Assembly: GCF_001418135.1 (NCBI RefSeq)
Contig: NZ_LIPQ01000103.1
Span: 1-64,000 of the forward strand
Reading direction: 5' to 3'
Origin: Streptomyces aureus
GTDB lineage: Bacteria; Actinomycetota; Actinomycetes; Streptomycetales; Streptomycetaceae
DNA: 64,000 nt
Shown: piece by piece, positions 19,363 through 28,983 of the stretch
Numbering within the stretch: position 1 is the stretch's first letter
Layout of the letters: each line of letters begins with the position of its first letter
The notes under the pieces: generated by a model
The model's input: the letters and a program-made list of their open reading frames with translations, nothing else
Told to the model about the DNA's origin: nothing
Database searches by the model: none
Made by a program: the position numbers and the translations under genes

Positions 19363-20237
19363 TAAAGCGTGTTGCAGAACGCTGCGGAGCGGGCATTTCC
19401 CTTGCATGCGTGGGGTGTTGAGGGCCGAGTCGTTGTGGGTGGAGACGTTCACGGGTCTGCGGATGCGGCAGTTCGAGCGGCTGGTGAAGGTGGTTCGCGA
19501 GCGGGGCGGGAACGGGCCCGGTGGTGGTCGGCCGTGGTGTCTGCCGCTGGCCGACCGGGTGCTGCCGCTGGCCGTCTACTACCGCACGAACCTCACCATG
19601 CGGCAGCTCGCGCCACTGTTCGGCTGCTCGCCGGCGACGGTGTGCCGGGTGATCCAGCGGCTGCGGCCGCTGCTCGCGATCGAGCCGGCCACCCGTCCCG
19701 CCGACGCGGTGGAACGGTTGTGGATCGTGGACGGCACCCTCGTCCCGGTCCGTGACCGGAAGGTCGGAGCGTCCTCGCGCAACTACCGGTTCTCGGCGAA
19801 CGTGCAGGTCATCATCGATGCCGACACCAGGTTGGTGGTCGCCGCGGCCCGGCCGGTGCCCGGCAACACCGCGGATGCGAAAGCGTGGCGGGACTCCGGC
19901 CTGGCCCGGCACTGCGAAGGCGTGACCGTGCTGGCCGACGGCGCGTACATCAACACCGGGCTCGTCGTCCCGCACCGCAAACGCCCCGGACGAGCCCTCC
20001 TCCCCGGTGAGGAGGAGGACAACGCCGAGCACCGCAGAGTGCGGGCCCGCGTTGAGCACGCCTTCGCCCGCATGAAGCACTACAAGATCCTGCGCGACTG
20101 CCGCCAGCGCGGCAACGGCCTCCACCACGCGGTCCAAGCAGTCGCCCACATGCACAACCTCGCCATGGCCGCGTGAGCAGGCCAGCCACGAAACCGACCC
20201 TGACCTGCCCAGACACAACCTTCTGCAACACGCTTTA
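19363..20237 (+). mobile_element. Complete IS5-type insertion sequence
   Basis: Terminal inverted repeats TAAAGCGTGTTGCAGAA (19363-19379) and TTCTGCAACACGCTTTA (20221-20237) are exact inverses. They include a TA at each outer edge, which could be the target duplication. One full transposase gene lies inside. The right TA is also the left TA of the IS630 element that follows. Confidence 0.88.
19406..20176 (+). CDS. Transposase, DDE_Tnp_4 type
   Basis: This 256-residue transposase starts at MRGVLRAESLW. The HTH region is LTMRQLAPLFGCSPATVCRVI. The DDE catalytic residues are in LWIVDGTLVPVRD, VTVLADGAYINTG and the C-terminal RRVRARVEHAFARMKHYKIL (Glu). Length and motifs are those of a complete IS5-group enzyme. 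A fragment of the same element lies at 430-532, so the element has moved in this genome. Confidence 0.9.
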   Translation: MRGVLRAESLWVETFTGLRMRQFERLVKVVRERGGNGPGGGRPWCLPLADRVLPLAVYYRTNLTMRQLAPLFGCSPATVCRVIQRLRPLLAIEPATRPADAVERLWIVDGTLVPVRDRKVGASSRNYRFSANVQVIIDADTRLVVAAARPVPGNTADAKAWRDSGLARHCEGVTVLADGAYINTGLVVPHRKRPGRALLPGEEEDNAEHRRVRARVEHAFARMKHYKILRDCRQRGNGLHHAVQAVAHMHNLAMAA

Positions 20238-20249
20238 CTGATCTTCTCG

Positions 20250-20849
20250 TTAGTTCTGTGGGGTTTGTGGGTGGATGGTGAGTCCGGTGTGGGTGAGGAA
20301 GGACCAGGGCAGTTGTGGGTTGTCGTTGATGCGGTGGATGCCTTGCTCGGTGGCGTCTGCGACGTCGGCGAGGTGGTCGCCGGCGAGGTTGGCGAGTTCG
20401 CGTTTCTTGAGCGAGGACCACAAAAGTTCCACCGGGTTGAGCTCGGGCGCGTAGGCGGGTAATCGCTCGAGGGTGAGCCAGTCCTGCTCGGCGACCCAGG
20501 CCCGCATGGCTTGGCTCCAGTGGGCGGACAGTCCGTCCCAGACCAGCACCACCCGCTCGCCGCGGTAGAACACCTTCATCTGCTCCAGAACCTCGATGAG
20601 GGCGTTGGTGTCGTAGCTGCCGGGCTTGAGATGGAAACAGAGGCGGGCCCCGCGATCGGGATCGGTTGAGTGGTATCCCAGGGCCCCGGCCATCGAAGCA
20701 CGCTTCCAGTTCAGGCGGTGTCGCAGGAGCGGGGTGCGGCCGCGGGGCGCGTAGGTGCGGCGGACCTGCGGCAGCAGCGACACTCCTGATTCGTCGAGGA
20801 AGACGATCCAGGCACGTGTGTTCACCGCCCCTTTTTGATCCGCGGCCAC
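20250..20849 (-). CDS. IS630 transposase, catalytic part (orfB)
   Basis: This 199-residue frame has the DDE_3 domain: IVFLDESGVSLLPQVRRTYA (first Asp), VVLVWDGLSAHWS (second Asp) and LPAYAPELNPVELLWSSLK (Glu). It lacks the HTH part, which is in orfA (20822-21322). The two frames overlap by 28 bp, the usual arrangement for a programmed -1 frameshift that makes the fused enzyme. Confidence 0.9.
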   Translation of the reverse strand: MAADQKGAVNTRAWIVFLDESGVSLLPQVRRTYAPRGRTPLLRHRLNWKRASMAGALGYHSTDPDRGARLCFHLKPGSYDTNALIEVLEQMKVFYRGERVVLVWDGLSAHWSQAMRAWVAEQDWLTLERLPAYAPELNPVELLWSSLKKRELANLAGDHLADVADATEQGIHRINDNPQLPWSFLTHTGLTIHPQTPQN

Positions 20850-22164: not shown

Positions 22165-22404
22165 TCCGTCGTAGTGCGCGGAACACTGAGCTTCTTCGAG
22201 TTGGCCACCGATCGGGTGACTGTGACTGAGCGCTTCACTTGGCGAGTGAGCGCTTGAGTTGGCGGCTGCAGCGTCCGGTGCCGGAAGCTGGGTGAGACGG
22301 GCCATGGGTCCACTCGGATTTGTCGGCCACAACGCAAACAGGGCGGGCAAGGCCGATGAGCGACGATCAAGCTGTTGTCAGTGGCTGACTCTAGGCTCGG
22401 CCCT

Positions 22405-23550
22405 ATGACAGCAGACCTGGTCCAGGCATCATGGACTCGCATCGACGCGTGGTTGCGCGAGCACGCGCCCCGCACTTTCGCCACGCTTCGGCCGCCCGCC
22501 AGGGACGAGGAGATCGCGGCAGCGCAAGAGGAACTGGGGGTCACCTTTCCTCCGGACCTGGTCGCTTCACTCCTCCGACACAACGGGGCGTTGGAGGGAC
22601 CTGAGGCTTTCCGGTTCAGCACGGGCGACCGGCTGCTCGGAGTGAGCGGGATCCTCGGGGAAACCGGGTGCATGCGTGGTTTTGACCAAGGCATAGACGG
22701 GGAGGCAGAGGGCTACTGGCTTCGCAGCTACGTAAAGTTCGGTTCCTATGACGTGACGTCGGACGGTCTCCTGGTGGATTGCCGTACTGGGCGGGACTCC
22801 TTCGGTGCGATCGGACGGTTCTTCGACGAGACCGGTACCCGTTTCGGGGCGGCCGACTCGCTGGGTGGGTATCTGTCCGAACTGGCCAGCAAGCTTGAGC
22901 GCGGCAAGGACGGTGGTGCCGTCACGTTCAACGGCCGGCTGTTCTGGGAGGGGCCTCTGGCTCCCAGACCGGAGTGCAGTGCCGACGAGCCCCTTCCCGC
23001 ACCGGATGAGAAGCTGCCGGAGCTGGACCTGTCCCACAGTCCCACCGACCTCTTCCACGCGAGCTACCTGGATGGGCATGAGGAACTCGGTGCACTGATC
23101 GCGATCCTGCCGTATGAGCAGGTGGTTGAGGCCGCACGGAAGCAGTTGCGCAGACTGGCGGTCGAATCGGGCCTGAACAAGTACCCGGAGGTCAAGGCAG
23201 CCCTGGACGCGTGGGAGTGCGGTGTGGCTCCACCGCAGCCGGACCAGACCGGGCCGCTCGCTTTGCGGCTCCGCGCGGTGCTCGTGCAGGCCAACACCGG
23301 CCGAGACGTCACTCTCAGGTGGGCCGCGGAGAAGATAGCCCTCGGGATCTGGGGGTCCCCCTACAGGTCCGTGTGCGAGAGCGCGGAGCTCCGAAGTCAT
23401 TTCACTGTCGACTGGCGTGCGGATCTGCATGCGGACCTGGGCAGTCCTCCACTGCCGCCGCTGCCTGACGAGCGCTTCTGGGGGACTCTGCGCAACCCCG
23501 CCATCGACTCCAGTTGGTACGCAGCTCAGTACACCCAAGATCAGGTCTGA
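22405..23550 (+). CDS. SMI1/KNR4 (SUKH) family protein
   Basis: This 381-residue protein starts at MTADLVQASWTRIDAWL. The SUKH domain is in the first 190 residues: RPPARDEEIAAAQEELGVTF, PPDLVASLLRHNGALEGPEA, FRFSTGDRLLGVSGIL and then YWLRSYVKFGSYDVTSDGLL with FFDETGTRFGAADSLGGYL. The remaining part (LDLSHSPTDLFHASYLDGHE, AAEKIALGIWGSPYRSVC) is a helical domain seen in other Streptomyces relatives. It may be an immunity protein or a scaffold; no toxin is adjacent. The helicase fossil follows on the other strand. Confidence 0.82.
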   Translation: MTADLVQASWTRIDAWLREHAPRTFATLRPPARDEEIAAAQEELGVTFPPDLVASLLRHNGALEGPEAFRFSTGDRLLGVSGILGETGCMRGFDQGIDGEAEGYWLRSYVKFGSYDVTSDGLLVDCRTGRDSFGAIGRFFDETGTRFGAADSLGGYLSELASKLERGKDGGAVTFNGRLFWEGPLAPRPECSADEPLPAPDEKLPELDLSHSPTDLFHASYLDGHEELGALIAILPYEQVVEAARKQLRRLAVESGLNKYPEVKAALDAWECGVAPPQPDQTGPLALRLRAVLVQANTGRDVTLRWAAEKIALGIWGSPYRSVCESAELRSHFTVDWRADLHADLGSPPLPPLPDERFWGTLRNPAIDSSWYAAQYTQDQV

Positions 23551-25487: not shown

Positions 25488-25547
25488 TAAGGGTTGTCCC
25501 GCAAGTGATCTCGGACGTGCTTCTCAGCAGTCGTCGGCATAGATCCA

Positions 25548-26318
25548 CTATCCGGTCAGGGCGAGGTTGTGGAGGCGGGCGATGCCGAGCATGGCGTGGT
25601 GGACGCCGTCGCCTTTCAGGCGGCAGTCGCGGAGGATCTTTGAGGTCTTCATGCGGGCCAACGTGTGCTCGACTCGGGCGCGGACTTTGCGGTGGGAGGT
25701 GTTGTGGGCTTCCTTCCAAGCCGGTAGTTCGGTCTGGCCAGGTTCTCGGCGGTGCGGGATGATCAGACCGGTGCCGCGGTAGCCACCGTCTGCGATCACG
25801 GTGGTGTTGCCGACCGAGCTCTTGGCTCCGGATAGTTCCCATGCCTTGCAGTCGTTGCGGTTGCCGGGCACGGGCCGGCCGACGGAGACGACAAGGCGTG
25901 AGTCGGCATCGATGACGACCTGGTGGTTGGTCGAGTAGCGGTAGTTCTTGGACTGCTCCGCCACACTGTGGTCCCGTGTCGGCACCAGGGTGCCGTCCAC
26001 GATCAGCACCGTGTCTCGGCGGAAGCGGCTCCGCGGCTGCAGCGCGAGCAAGGGCCCGAGCTGGCTCACGATCCGGCCCGCGGCCGACTTCGAGATCCCG
26101 AACAGGGGAGCCAGCTGCCGCAAGGTCAGGTTCGTCCGCCAGTACGCGGCAACCAGCAGAACCCGGTCTTCCAGCGGCAGACTCCACGGACGACCCCTGC
26201 AAACAAGGGGCGGGCCTCCGCGCCGCAGCATGGTGATCAGTTTCCCGAACTGCTTCGGACTCAGCCCGGAGTACGGCGTTATCCATGACGGCTCCGACGC
26301 CGTGATCACAGCCCCCAC
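25548..26318 (-). CDS. Transposase, DDE_Tnp_4 type
   Basis: This 256-residue protein contains LTLRQLAPLFGISKSAAGRI (HTH), VLIVDGTLVPTRD (first Asp), NTTVIADGGYRGTGLIIPHR (second Asp) and KVRARVEHTLARMKTSKILR (Glu). It is full length and uninterrupted. It is related to, but clearly different from, the enzyme at 19406. The terminal repeats at 25488 and 27045 are its presumed substrates, and the similar ends at 21380-21885 might be too. Confidence 0.9.
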   Translation of the reverse strand: MGAVITASEPSWITPYSGLSPKQFGKLITMLRRGGPPLVCRGRPWSLPLEDRVLLVAAYWRTNLTLRQLAPLFGISKSAAGRIVSQLGPLLALQPRSRFRRDTVLIVDGTLVPTRDHSVAEQSKNYRYSTNHQVVIDADSRLVVSVGRPVPGNRNDCKAWELSGAKSSVGNTTVIADGGYRGTGLIIPHRREPGQTELPAWKEAHNTSHRKVRARVEHTLARMKTSKILRDCRLKGDGVHHAMLGIARLHNLALTG

Positions 26319-26396
26319 AAGAAGATCATCTCAGCGACGGGCCTGACATCCCTGCCCGCCCGGAGGCATACGGCCCGTGACTTTGCCGGGCCGAAG

Positions 26397-26957
26397 TCAG
26401 TAGAGCCAGCGGTCCAGGAGCCCTGGCCAGAGAAAGCCTTCGTAGCCGTTGAAGGCCGCCGGGTCGATCTCCTTCAGCTCCTCGGCCAGCTGGTTCAGCT
26501 CCGCGAAGGCCCGCTCTTCCTCCTCCTCAGAGAAGTACTCCTCGGGACCGTCCGGCTCACTGAGAAGCTCAGAGGCTGTGACTCGACTGCCGTAACAGTG
26601 AAGGACGTCGAGCCACACGCCGACACCCGAGTTGCCGAACCATGCCTCCCCATCCGGCATGACGAAGTAGACCGCCCCAGTCTCCGGCTCGACGCCGAAC
26701 GATGACCGCTCGGCCTGAACATCGGGGTCCGCCTGCTCGGTGAGACGGTAGAGCGGGCCCCGGGACGCGAGCAGGGCTGGCTCAGCCTCGCTCTGCATCA
26801 CGACTCGTTCGATGAGGCGCGGAGCTACCGGGATGCCCACCTCGACGAGCTGTGCCTTCATGAAGCCCGGGATCCGCCAGCCGGCCACAGCGTCCTGTCC
26901 GGCTCGCGTGACATGCCCCAGACCGGCCCACTCGGTCAGCTGGTCGTACGTCGCCAT
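26397..26957 (-). CDS. SUKH-4-like immunity protein carried by an IS element
   Basis: This 186-residue protein starts at MATYDQLTEWAGLGHVTRAG. The SUKH-4 pattern is visible: RIPGFMKAQLVEVGIPVAPR near the start, PETGAVYFVMPDGEAWFGNS in the middle and SEEEEERAFAELNQLAEELK with DPAAFNGYEGFLWPGLLDRW at the end. Such proteins protect against polymorphic toxins or act as related scaffolds. It lies 78 bp upstream of the transposase and inside the same pair of terminal repeats. The start was chosen because it follows a GAGGATC stretch and removes a poorly conserved 21-residue extension. Confidence 0.75.
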   Translation of the reverse strand: MATYDQLTEWAGLGHVTRAGQDAVAGWRIPGFMKAQLVEVGIPVAPRLIERVVMQSEAEPALLASRGPLYRLTEQADPDVQAERSSFGVEPETGAVYFVMPDGEAWFGNSGVGVWLDVLHCYGSRVTASELLSEPDGPEEYFSEEEEERAFAELNQLAEELKEIDPAAFNGYEGFLWPGLLDRWLY

Positions 26958-27045
26958 CGAACGATCCTCTTCCGTCGGCTGCGGACCTGACCCTATCGAG
27001 CCGGTCTCAGGCCAAGGCACGGCCGCACTTGCGGGACATCCCTTA

Positions 27046-27743: not shown

Positions 27744-28983
27744 ATGGACGTGTTCTGCGGGATCGACTGGGCGGAGGGACACCATGACGTTGCGCTCGTC
27801 GACGACACCGGCAAGTTGCTGCCAAGTGCCGCATCGGCGACGATCTGGACGGCTACCGCCTGCTGCTGGATCTCCTGGCTGAGCACGGCGATACCGCGGA
27901 GACGCCGATCCCGGTGGCGATCGAGACCAGCCGCGGCCTGCTGGTCGCCACGCTGAGGCAGAGTGCCCGGCAGATCTTCGCGGTCAACCCGATGGCGGCC
28001 TCCCGCTACCGCGACCGCCACGGAGTTAGCCGTAAGAAGCCCGACCCCGGCGACGCACTCGTGCTCACAAACATCATCCGCACGGACATGCCGATGCACC
28101 GGCCGTTGGCTGCCGACACCGACCTGGCCCAGGCGGTGGCTGTCCTGGCCCGAGCCCAGCAGGACGCGGTCTGGAACCGGCAACAGGTCTGCAACCAGAT
28201 CCGCTCGCTGCTGCGCGAGTACTTCCCGGCGTTTCTGGAGGCGTTCAAGGACAAGCAGGGCGGTCTGGCCCGTCCCGACGCCCGCCGGATCCTGGCGGTG
28301 GCACCGACGCCCGCGCTGGCCGCCAAGCTGCCGCTCTGGCGACTGACGGCCATGATGAAGCGGGCCGGCCGACGCAGGAACATCGAGGCTGACACTGGCG
28401 CCTGCAGGAGCTCTTCCGCCGCGAGGCCCCGCACCAGGTCCCGCTGGTCGAAGAAGCGATGGGCAAGCAGGCCCGGGCCCTGCTGCTGCAGCTGGACGCT
28501 GCCTGCGAAGCGGTCGCCGACCTTGGACAGGCCACAGAGGAAGCGTTCCGAGCCCAACCCGACGCCTCGATCATGCTGAGCTTTCCCGGCATCGGCTCCC
28601 AGATCGGCGCGCGAATCCTCGCGGAGATCGGCGACGACCGCACCCGGTTCGCCACCGCCGGAGGGCTGAAGGCATACGCGGGCGCGGCCCCCATCACCCG
28701 GGCCTCCGGCAAACGGCACTACGTCGGGCGCCGATTCGTCAAGATCAACCGGCTCAACCACGTCGGCCACCTCTGGGCCTTCGCTTCCCTCGGCGGCTCG
28801 GCCGGTGCCGACGCCCACTACCGGCGGCGACGGACCGGCGGGGACTGGCACATGCAGGCCCTGCGGCACCTGTTCAATCGGATGCTCGGCCAACTCCGTC
28901 ACTGCCTCTTGGCACGGGTCCCGTTCGATGAAGCGATCGCCTTCCCCGCACAGCCCCATCCAGCAGGAACAGCCACCGCGTGA
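27744..28983 (+). pseudogene. IS110 family transposase with two frameshifts
   Basis: The frame starts MDVFCGIDWAEGHHDVALVD with the DEDD domain, and one base appears lost near 27825 (ctg-ccaag for ctggccaag). It continues with CRIGDDLDGYRLLLDLLAEH, PVAIETSRGLLVATLRQ and KPDPGDALVLTNIIRTD to about 28390. A second shift then leads to LQELFRREAPHQVP and the Tnp_20 domain (SIMLSFPGIGSQIGARILAE, KAYAGAAPITRASGKRHYVG). All domains are present in order, so repair of two bases would restore it. A C-terminal relative is at 62945-63602. Confidence 0.85.

Follow-up and report, generated by a model that had tools for sequence, protein, structure and literature searches.

Positions 25488-27045 of the Streptomyces aureus window analysed here (the whole stretch of 64,000 nucleotides from contig NZ_LIPQ01000103.1) form a mobile element of 1,558 bp, in which near-perfect terminal repeats enclose a transposase gene and an intact SUKH-4 gene. 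This element is an IS5/IS112-like insertion sequence (IS) that prefers CTAG targets, has a TA dinucleotide on both sides and appears to move as one piece with its SUKH-4 cassette. The best explanation of the whole, to which we give a probability of about 0.72, is an IS that moves as a unit and has an exchangeable slot, occupied here by the SUKH-4 gene as an orphan immunity cargo.

The left terminal inverted repeat (25488-25507, forward strand) and the right one (27026-27045, reverse strand) are identical at 19 of 20 positions, for a chance expectation of 0.01 matches in the window. Each of them includes one copy of the TA target, and the 17-nt core (TAAGGGNTGTCCCGYAA) lies at 25488-25504 on the left and at 27029-27045 on the right. 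The IS5-type DDE transposase (25548-26318, reverse strand, annotated start GTG) is intact, with 256 aa. DDE_Tnp_1, HTH_Tnp_4 and DDE_Tnp_4 were each detected above the Pfam cut-off, and the putative DDE residues, assigned from motifs, are D108, D177 and E217. The conserved transposase leader and start (26300-26333, reverse strand, TGAGATGATCTTCTTGTGGGGGCTGTGATCACGG) contain an ATGATC motif about 10-15 nt upstream of the annotated GTG, and the outer edge of this segment, at about 26333, is the fixed cargo junction. Next to it, the cargo slot (26334-27028), which holds only a short spacer in the transposase-only relatives, is filled by the SUKH-4 cassette. The SUKH-4 gene is upstream of the transposase and co-directional with it; its longest frame (26397-27020, reverse strand, 207 aa) matches PF14435 with an E-value of 1.3e-17, covering positions 4-178 of the 179 of the profile. 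The likely coding sequence is 26397-26957, with an ATG at 26957 (MATYDQ...) and 187 codons including the stop. The sequence-only reading had described near-perfect repeats enclosing a full transposase and a full SUKH-4 gene on the same strand, and the repeats and the Pfam matches bear this out.

Two other transposases are found in the neighbourhood. At 19460-20334, another IS5-type transposase (52% identical) belongs to an element of about 875 bp with other ends (TAAAGCGTGTTGCAGAA...). At 27914-28983, an IS110-type transposase (DEDD_Tnp_IS110) extends across two overlapping frames and is probably a frameshifted copy. In addition, a gene with a SMI1_KNR4 (SUKH-1) domain (22375-23550) lies about 2 kb from the element.

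We then searched for the empty site, a comparison that had been proposed beforehand as proof of the boundaries. The joined flanks of the element have an uninterrupted match in five other Streptomyces genomes (84-90% identity), and the element boundaries are exact. At base level, over a longer stretch (78-82%), CCAGG-TA-[IS]-TA-GGGAG is aligned with CCAGGTGGGGAG in one relative. The insert has one TA per side where the relatives show only one dinucleotide, TG or CG; the pre-insertion TA itself was not seen. None of the relatives compared showed the pattern named beforehand as a refutation, in which the element would consist of the transposase alone and end near 26340, with SUKH-4 at the same place.

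In other species, unrelated DNA flanks the SUKH-4/transposase unit. At six loci (L013, L014, L015, L017, L018, L020), the right end is where homology to the window begins, and at two of them (L015, L020) it stops at the left end. L015 and L020/L027 contain the same unit, whole and with exact ends, at unrelated loci, and L013, L014, L017 and L018 are copies anchored at the right end that have lost part of the left side. As this homology starts and stops at the repeats while the surrounding DNA differs, the mobile unit includes the SUKH-4 gene, as the earlier reading had it. The uninterrupted empty sites and the homology breaking exactly at the repeats, with differing flanks, indicate that the ends of the window element are true transposition ends. 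These independent insertions suggest that the transposase moves the passenger together with the ends: it would act on the two outermost repeats and move all the DNA between them.

The target context was then determined for the related elements. A CTAG context was found for 51 of 64 cargo elements and 22 of 29 transposase-only elements, and none of 52 pairs of elements with the same cargo shared flanks. Moreover, joined-flank matches spanning the junction were also obtained for other cargo elements (L128, L129, L137, L149). The end core TAAGGGNTGTCCCGYAA was also searched by pattern in 150 Streptomyces genomes, with the reversed core as a control. It is present in 71 of these 150 genomes, with zero reversed controls among the matches listed, and is thus enriched over the control. 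Miniature elements of about 166 and 213-230 bp with the 17-nt end core were also observed (L037, L039, L040, L051, L075, L077 and others). They are too short for a transposase and are probable MITEs mobilised by this transposase group. Such miniature elements, scattered in these genomes, mean that stray ends exist, which is the point in favour of a composite made by chance, i.e. a transposase-only IS standing beside an unrelated SUKH-4 gene, with a right end that is fortuitous or that belongs to a second element. We nevertheless judge this composite to be extremely improbable given the CTAG at the cargo ends, the empty site, the exact boundaries shared by unrelated loci and the control for right-end sites (0 in 434 kb). 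The last three refute a fortuitous right end for the window element.

To place the element among its relatives, the transposase protein was searched in 393 Streptomyces genomes, 161 of which contain a match with E<=1e-90. Both ends were found for 95 of 129 full-length transposase matches when all loci are counted; two of these 95 are distant homologues with less than 60% identity and were excluded later. For the census, we took 100 of the listed loci, which are the copies most similar to that of the window and not a random draw. This census contains 79 complete elements, 53 with cargo and 26 with the transposase only. The transposase-only elements measure 872-884 bp and the cargo elements at least 1,147 bp, with none between these sizes; elements of more than 2 kb are less certain, as the nearest right end may be that of a neighbour. 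The expectation that IS5-type elements normally have no passenger is therefore wrong for this group, since cargo is present in 53 of the 79 complete copies. A second cargo element with the same kind of ends was observed in the genome of the window (L002, G000:C334:21878-23240); its passenger, DUF6221, is on the opposite strand and its transposase is broken by frameshifts.

The position of the cargo slot is fixed: it lies between the 17-nt right-end repeat and the conserved leader that immediately precedes the transposase start. When 38 cargo classes are aligned on the transposase start, conservation stays at background (about 0.1-0.4 bit) until four bases before the ATGATC motif, then rises sharply past the slot edge and is mostly >1.5 bits through TGANATGATCTTGNNGTGGCTGGTGTGATCACGG. 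On the right side of the slot, only the 17-nt repeat core is common to the cargo classes. This conservation edge and the shared right core define the architecture of the group: right repeat, any cargo, fixed transposase module and left repeat. Both cargo orientations occur. Furthermore, well-separated transposase lineages carry common cargo classes, such as a 127-aa protein of unknown function (c0), HAD_SAK-like, DUF6082, DUF6584 and c1, and each of these classes tends to retain its own sub-terminal right-end sequence, which suggests that the cargo and the right end travel as a cassette. The tree contains 52 state changes, a number that is only indicative as it comes from a quick tree with many weakly supported forks. 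One element (L101) owed its c3 label to an antisense artefact; in its cargo region it is similar to the DUF6584 cassette. We therefore describe two parts that meet at a fixed point: a constant transposase module, made of the left end, the transposase and the conserved leader, and an exchangeable cassette with the right repeat at its end; the mechanism by which cassettes would be exchanged is our inference.

About 38 unrelated cargo classes occupy this one slot in the census. Three are immunity classes, SUKH-4, Imm35-like (2.7e-07 at best, one member being just under the curated cut-off) and MafI (7.5e-14), and one is a weak VapB-like antitoxin (L113). Elements with the same ends and different immunity genes, which had been put forward as the expected support for an immunity-carrying IS, are thus present. 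The majority of the cargo is not recognisably immunity. In the Pfam and NCBIfam searches, the other passengers were DUF6221, DUF6082, DUF6584, DUF7878, DUF998, HAD enzymes, a mycothiol-S-transferase, a phosphotransferase, an alpha/beta hydrolase, GNATs and HEAT/LRV repeats, and many further ones are unknowns. A slot reserved for immunity genes is therefore rejected by the census. The excess of immunity classes is not significant (3 of 38 cargo classes vs. 2 of 103 flanking frames, both SMI1_KNR4; P = 0.12); including VapB gives P = 0.045, a post hoc comparison. These counts do not establish that the group is specialised in immunity in general. The PADLOC scan of the cargo gave no matches, and no toxin link was recognised in the contexts that we read around distant homologues of the unknown cargo classes. 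As this spot holds one of dozens of other single genes in close relatives of the window element, we regard these elements as small gene carriers rather than bare IS. The wider group would move many kinds of small accessory genes, of which immunity genes would be one minority.

This diversity, mostly of unknown function, is also what neutral hitchhiking would produce: any DNA would be tolerated in the slot, from the 17-nt right end to the leader, and the SUKH-4 gene would be a fortuitous host gene without benefit. The lack of significant immunity enrichment and the cargo regions with no clear frame (L121, L134, L139) agree with this explanation, which we nevertheless consider unlikely in view of the constraint on the SUKH-4 gene. 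Compared with the window copy, its dN/dS is 0.22-0.35 across loci, including copies without a transposase, which indicates purifying selection. In five copies, the transposase is gone and remnants of the right end are kept (L016, L021, L022, L185 with a perfect right-end core and L186 with a decayed one), and in all five the SUKH-4 gene is intact and constrained, which points to a value for the host. In one of them, the right end and the SUKH-4 gene are found without the transposase (L185:2967-3669), and homology to the window element ends about 8 bp before the slot junction, which hints that the slot is a place where cassettes can break.

The cargo could also serve the element itself by regulating transposition, by stabilising the element or by countering functions of the host or of rival elements. 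The fixed slot beside the leader, the SUKH-4 gene just upstream of the transposase and in the same direction, and the weak VapB-like antitoxin would fit such a role, for which the toxin-antitoxin (TA) modules of the Tn3 family are a precedent (PMC7157771). We find it less likely still than a neutral passenger, since cargo-free transposase-only relatives are present in multiple copies (L035, L096-L098), both cargo orientations are found and no one function is common to all the cargo.

We therefore retain an orphan immunity cargo as the explanation for the SUKH-4 gene. The SUKH-4-type transposases form a single clade with a long stem (SH-aLRT 100). Together with purifying selection on the gene, this makes a single capture of SUKH-4 followed by co-transposition the simplest account: one lineage would have captured the gene once, and gene and transposase would have moved together since. 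The gene is rare: at >=80% identity, it occurs in 6 of 393 genomes. Neither beside the close SUKH-4 homologues examined nor beside those with 45-60% identity whose context was read was a toxin recognised; the latter also stand alone, and some adjoin recombinase-like genes. The toxin-linked SUKH-4 gene on the NBC_00690 plasmid has no significant similarity to that of the window. Toxin linkage was thus rejected, and its absence is consistent with an orphan SUKH-4; as no toxin was recognised beside the gene, protection is proposed by inference. The NCBIfam scan gave no match for the SUKH-4 protein, and its AlphaFold model (pLDDT 37) is too poor for confirming the fold. The putative immunity function rests on the family, on the constraint and on precedents of orphan SUKH proteins: in Bacteroidales rAID arrays, SUKH orphans protect against a T6SS effector, as shown experimentally (PMC12247911). 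Most likely, the SUKH-4 protein would neutralise the polymorphic toxin of a competitor in the cytoplasm, and the cell receiving the IS would gain protection without owning the toxin. At one of the loci with the SUKH-4 IS (L018:6462-7836), two IS copies have between them an Imm21 gene (2.9e-52) and another SUKH-4 gene, which is dissimilar (4.9e-07); this cluster of immunity genes adjoins the SUKH-4 IS but is not within the limits set for either element.

Finally, we compared the element with known systems. It resembles the IS112-like, IS5-family (IS427-type) elements of Streptomyces in its DDE transposase with HTH_Tnp_4, its repeats of 17-20 bp and its 2-bp target duplication, and records about 81% identical are annotated as IS112 family. 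The best NCBIfam match of the transposase is the IS5 model NF033581 (1.1e-27), under the curated cut-off (97 vs. 140 bits). Members of the IS427 group measure 832-865 bp, nearly all with a 2-bp direct repeat, and most have two overlapping transposase frames (PMC3281130), whereas the window element has one. The size of the transposase-only relatives (872-885 bp) is close to that of this group, and 26 of the 79 census elements have the usual IS5 organisation (about 830-890 bp, transposase only). In contrast, the window element, at 1,558 bp, has a cargo gene in the slot, whose position between leader and right end is fixed. A transporter IS (tIS) is an IS derivative in which the ends of a single IS enclose passenger genes (PMC9330008; PMC7986276), and the window element likewise has a gene unrelated to transposition inside both ends of one IS. 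We would thus class it as a transporter IS within the IS5/IS112-like group, one whose cargo slot is exchangeable. In the IS6 family, one passenger-bearing member is reported (PMC7986276), whereas here two thirds of the complete copies have passengers, of about 38 kinds and at one junction. The rAID arrays (PMC12247911) similarly combine a recombination enzyme with orphan immunity genes, some of them for SUKH proteins, that stand without their toxin, but these are multi-gene co-oriented arrays with a tyrosine recombinase, while the window has a single, putatively protective SUKH-4 gene on a DDE IS in Actinomycetota. The TA passengers of the Tn3 family are also exchangeable modules, found next to the transposition genes at a particular position (PMC7157771); that transposase family is another one, and the passengers here are single genes of many functions and not TA pairs. 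The open-access literature searched yielded no report of an IS with an immunity gene as a passenger of this kind, and against that literature the frequency and diversity of the passengers, and the single junction that they share, appear unusual.

IS are usually annotated as transposase only, with their neighbours as host genes. As about two thirds of the complete copies carry a gene, genuine mobile cargo is overlooked by such annotation. With a fixed slot, the question of where IS passengers come from can be put to the test, and the way in which one cassette reaches different transposases can be traced in living genomes. Tentatively, and at slightly less than even odds, this IS group may be a general gene-shuttling platform, a constant transposase module with a defined slot, in which single-gene cassettes with their own right ends would pass again and again from one transposase lineage to another and so spread accessory genes, orphan immunity genes among them, in Streptomyces. 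Such elements would offer immunity proteins a minimal route (<2 kb) for spreading without their toxins.
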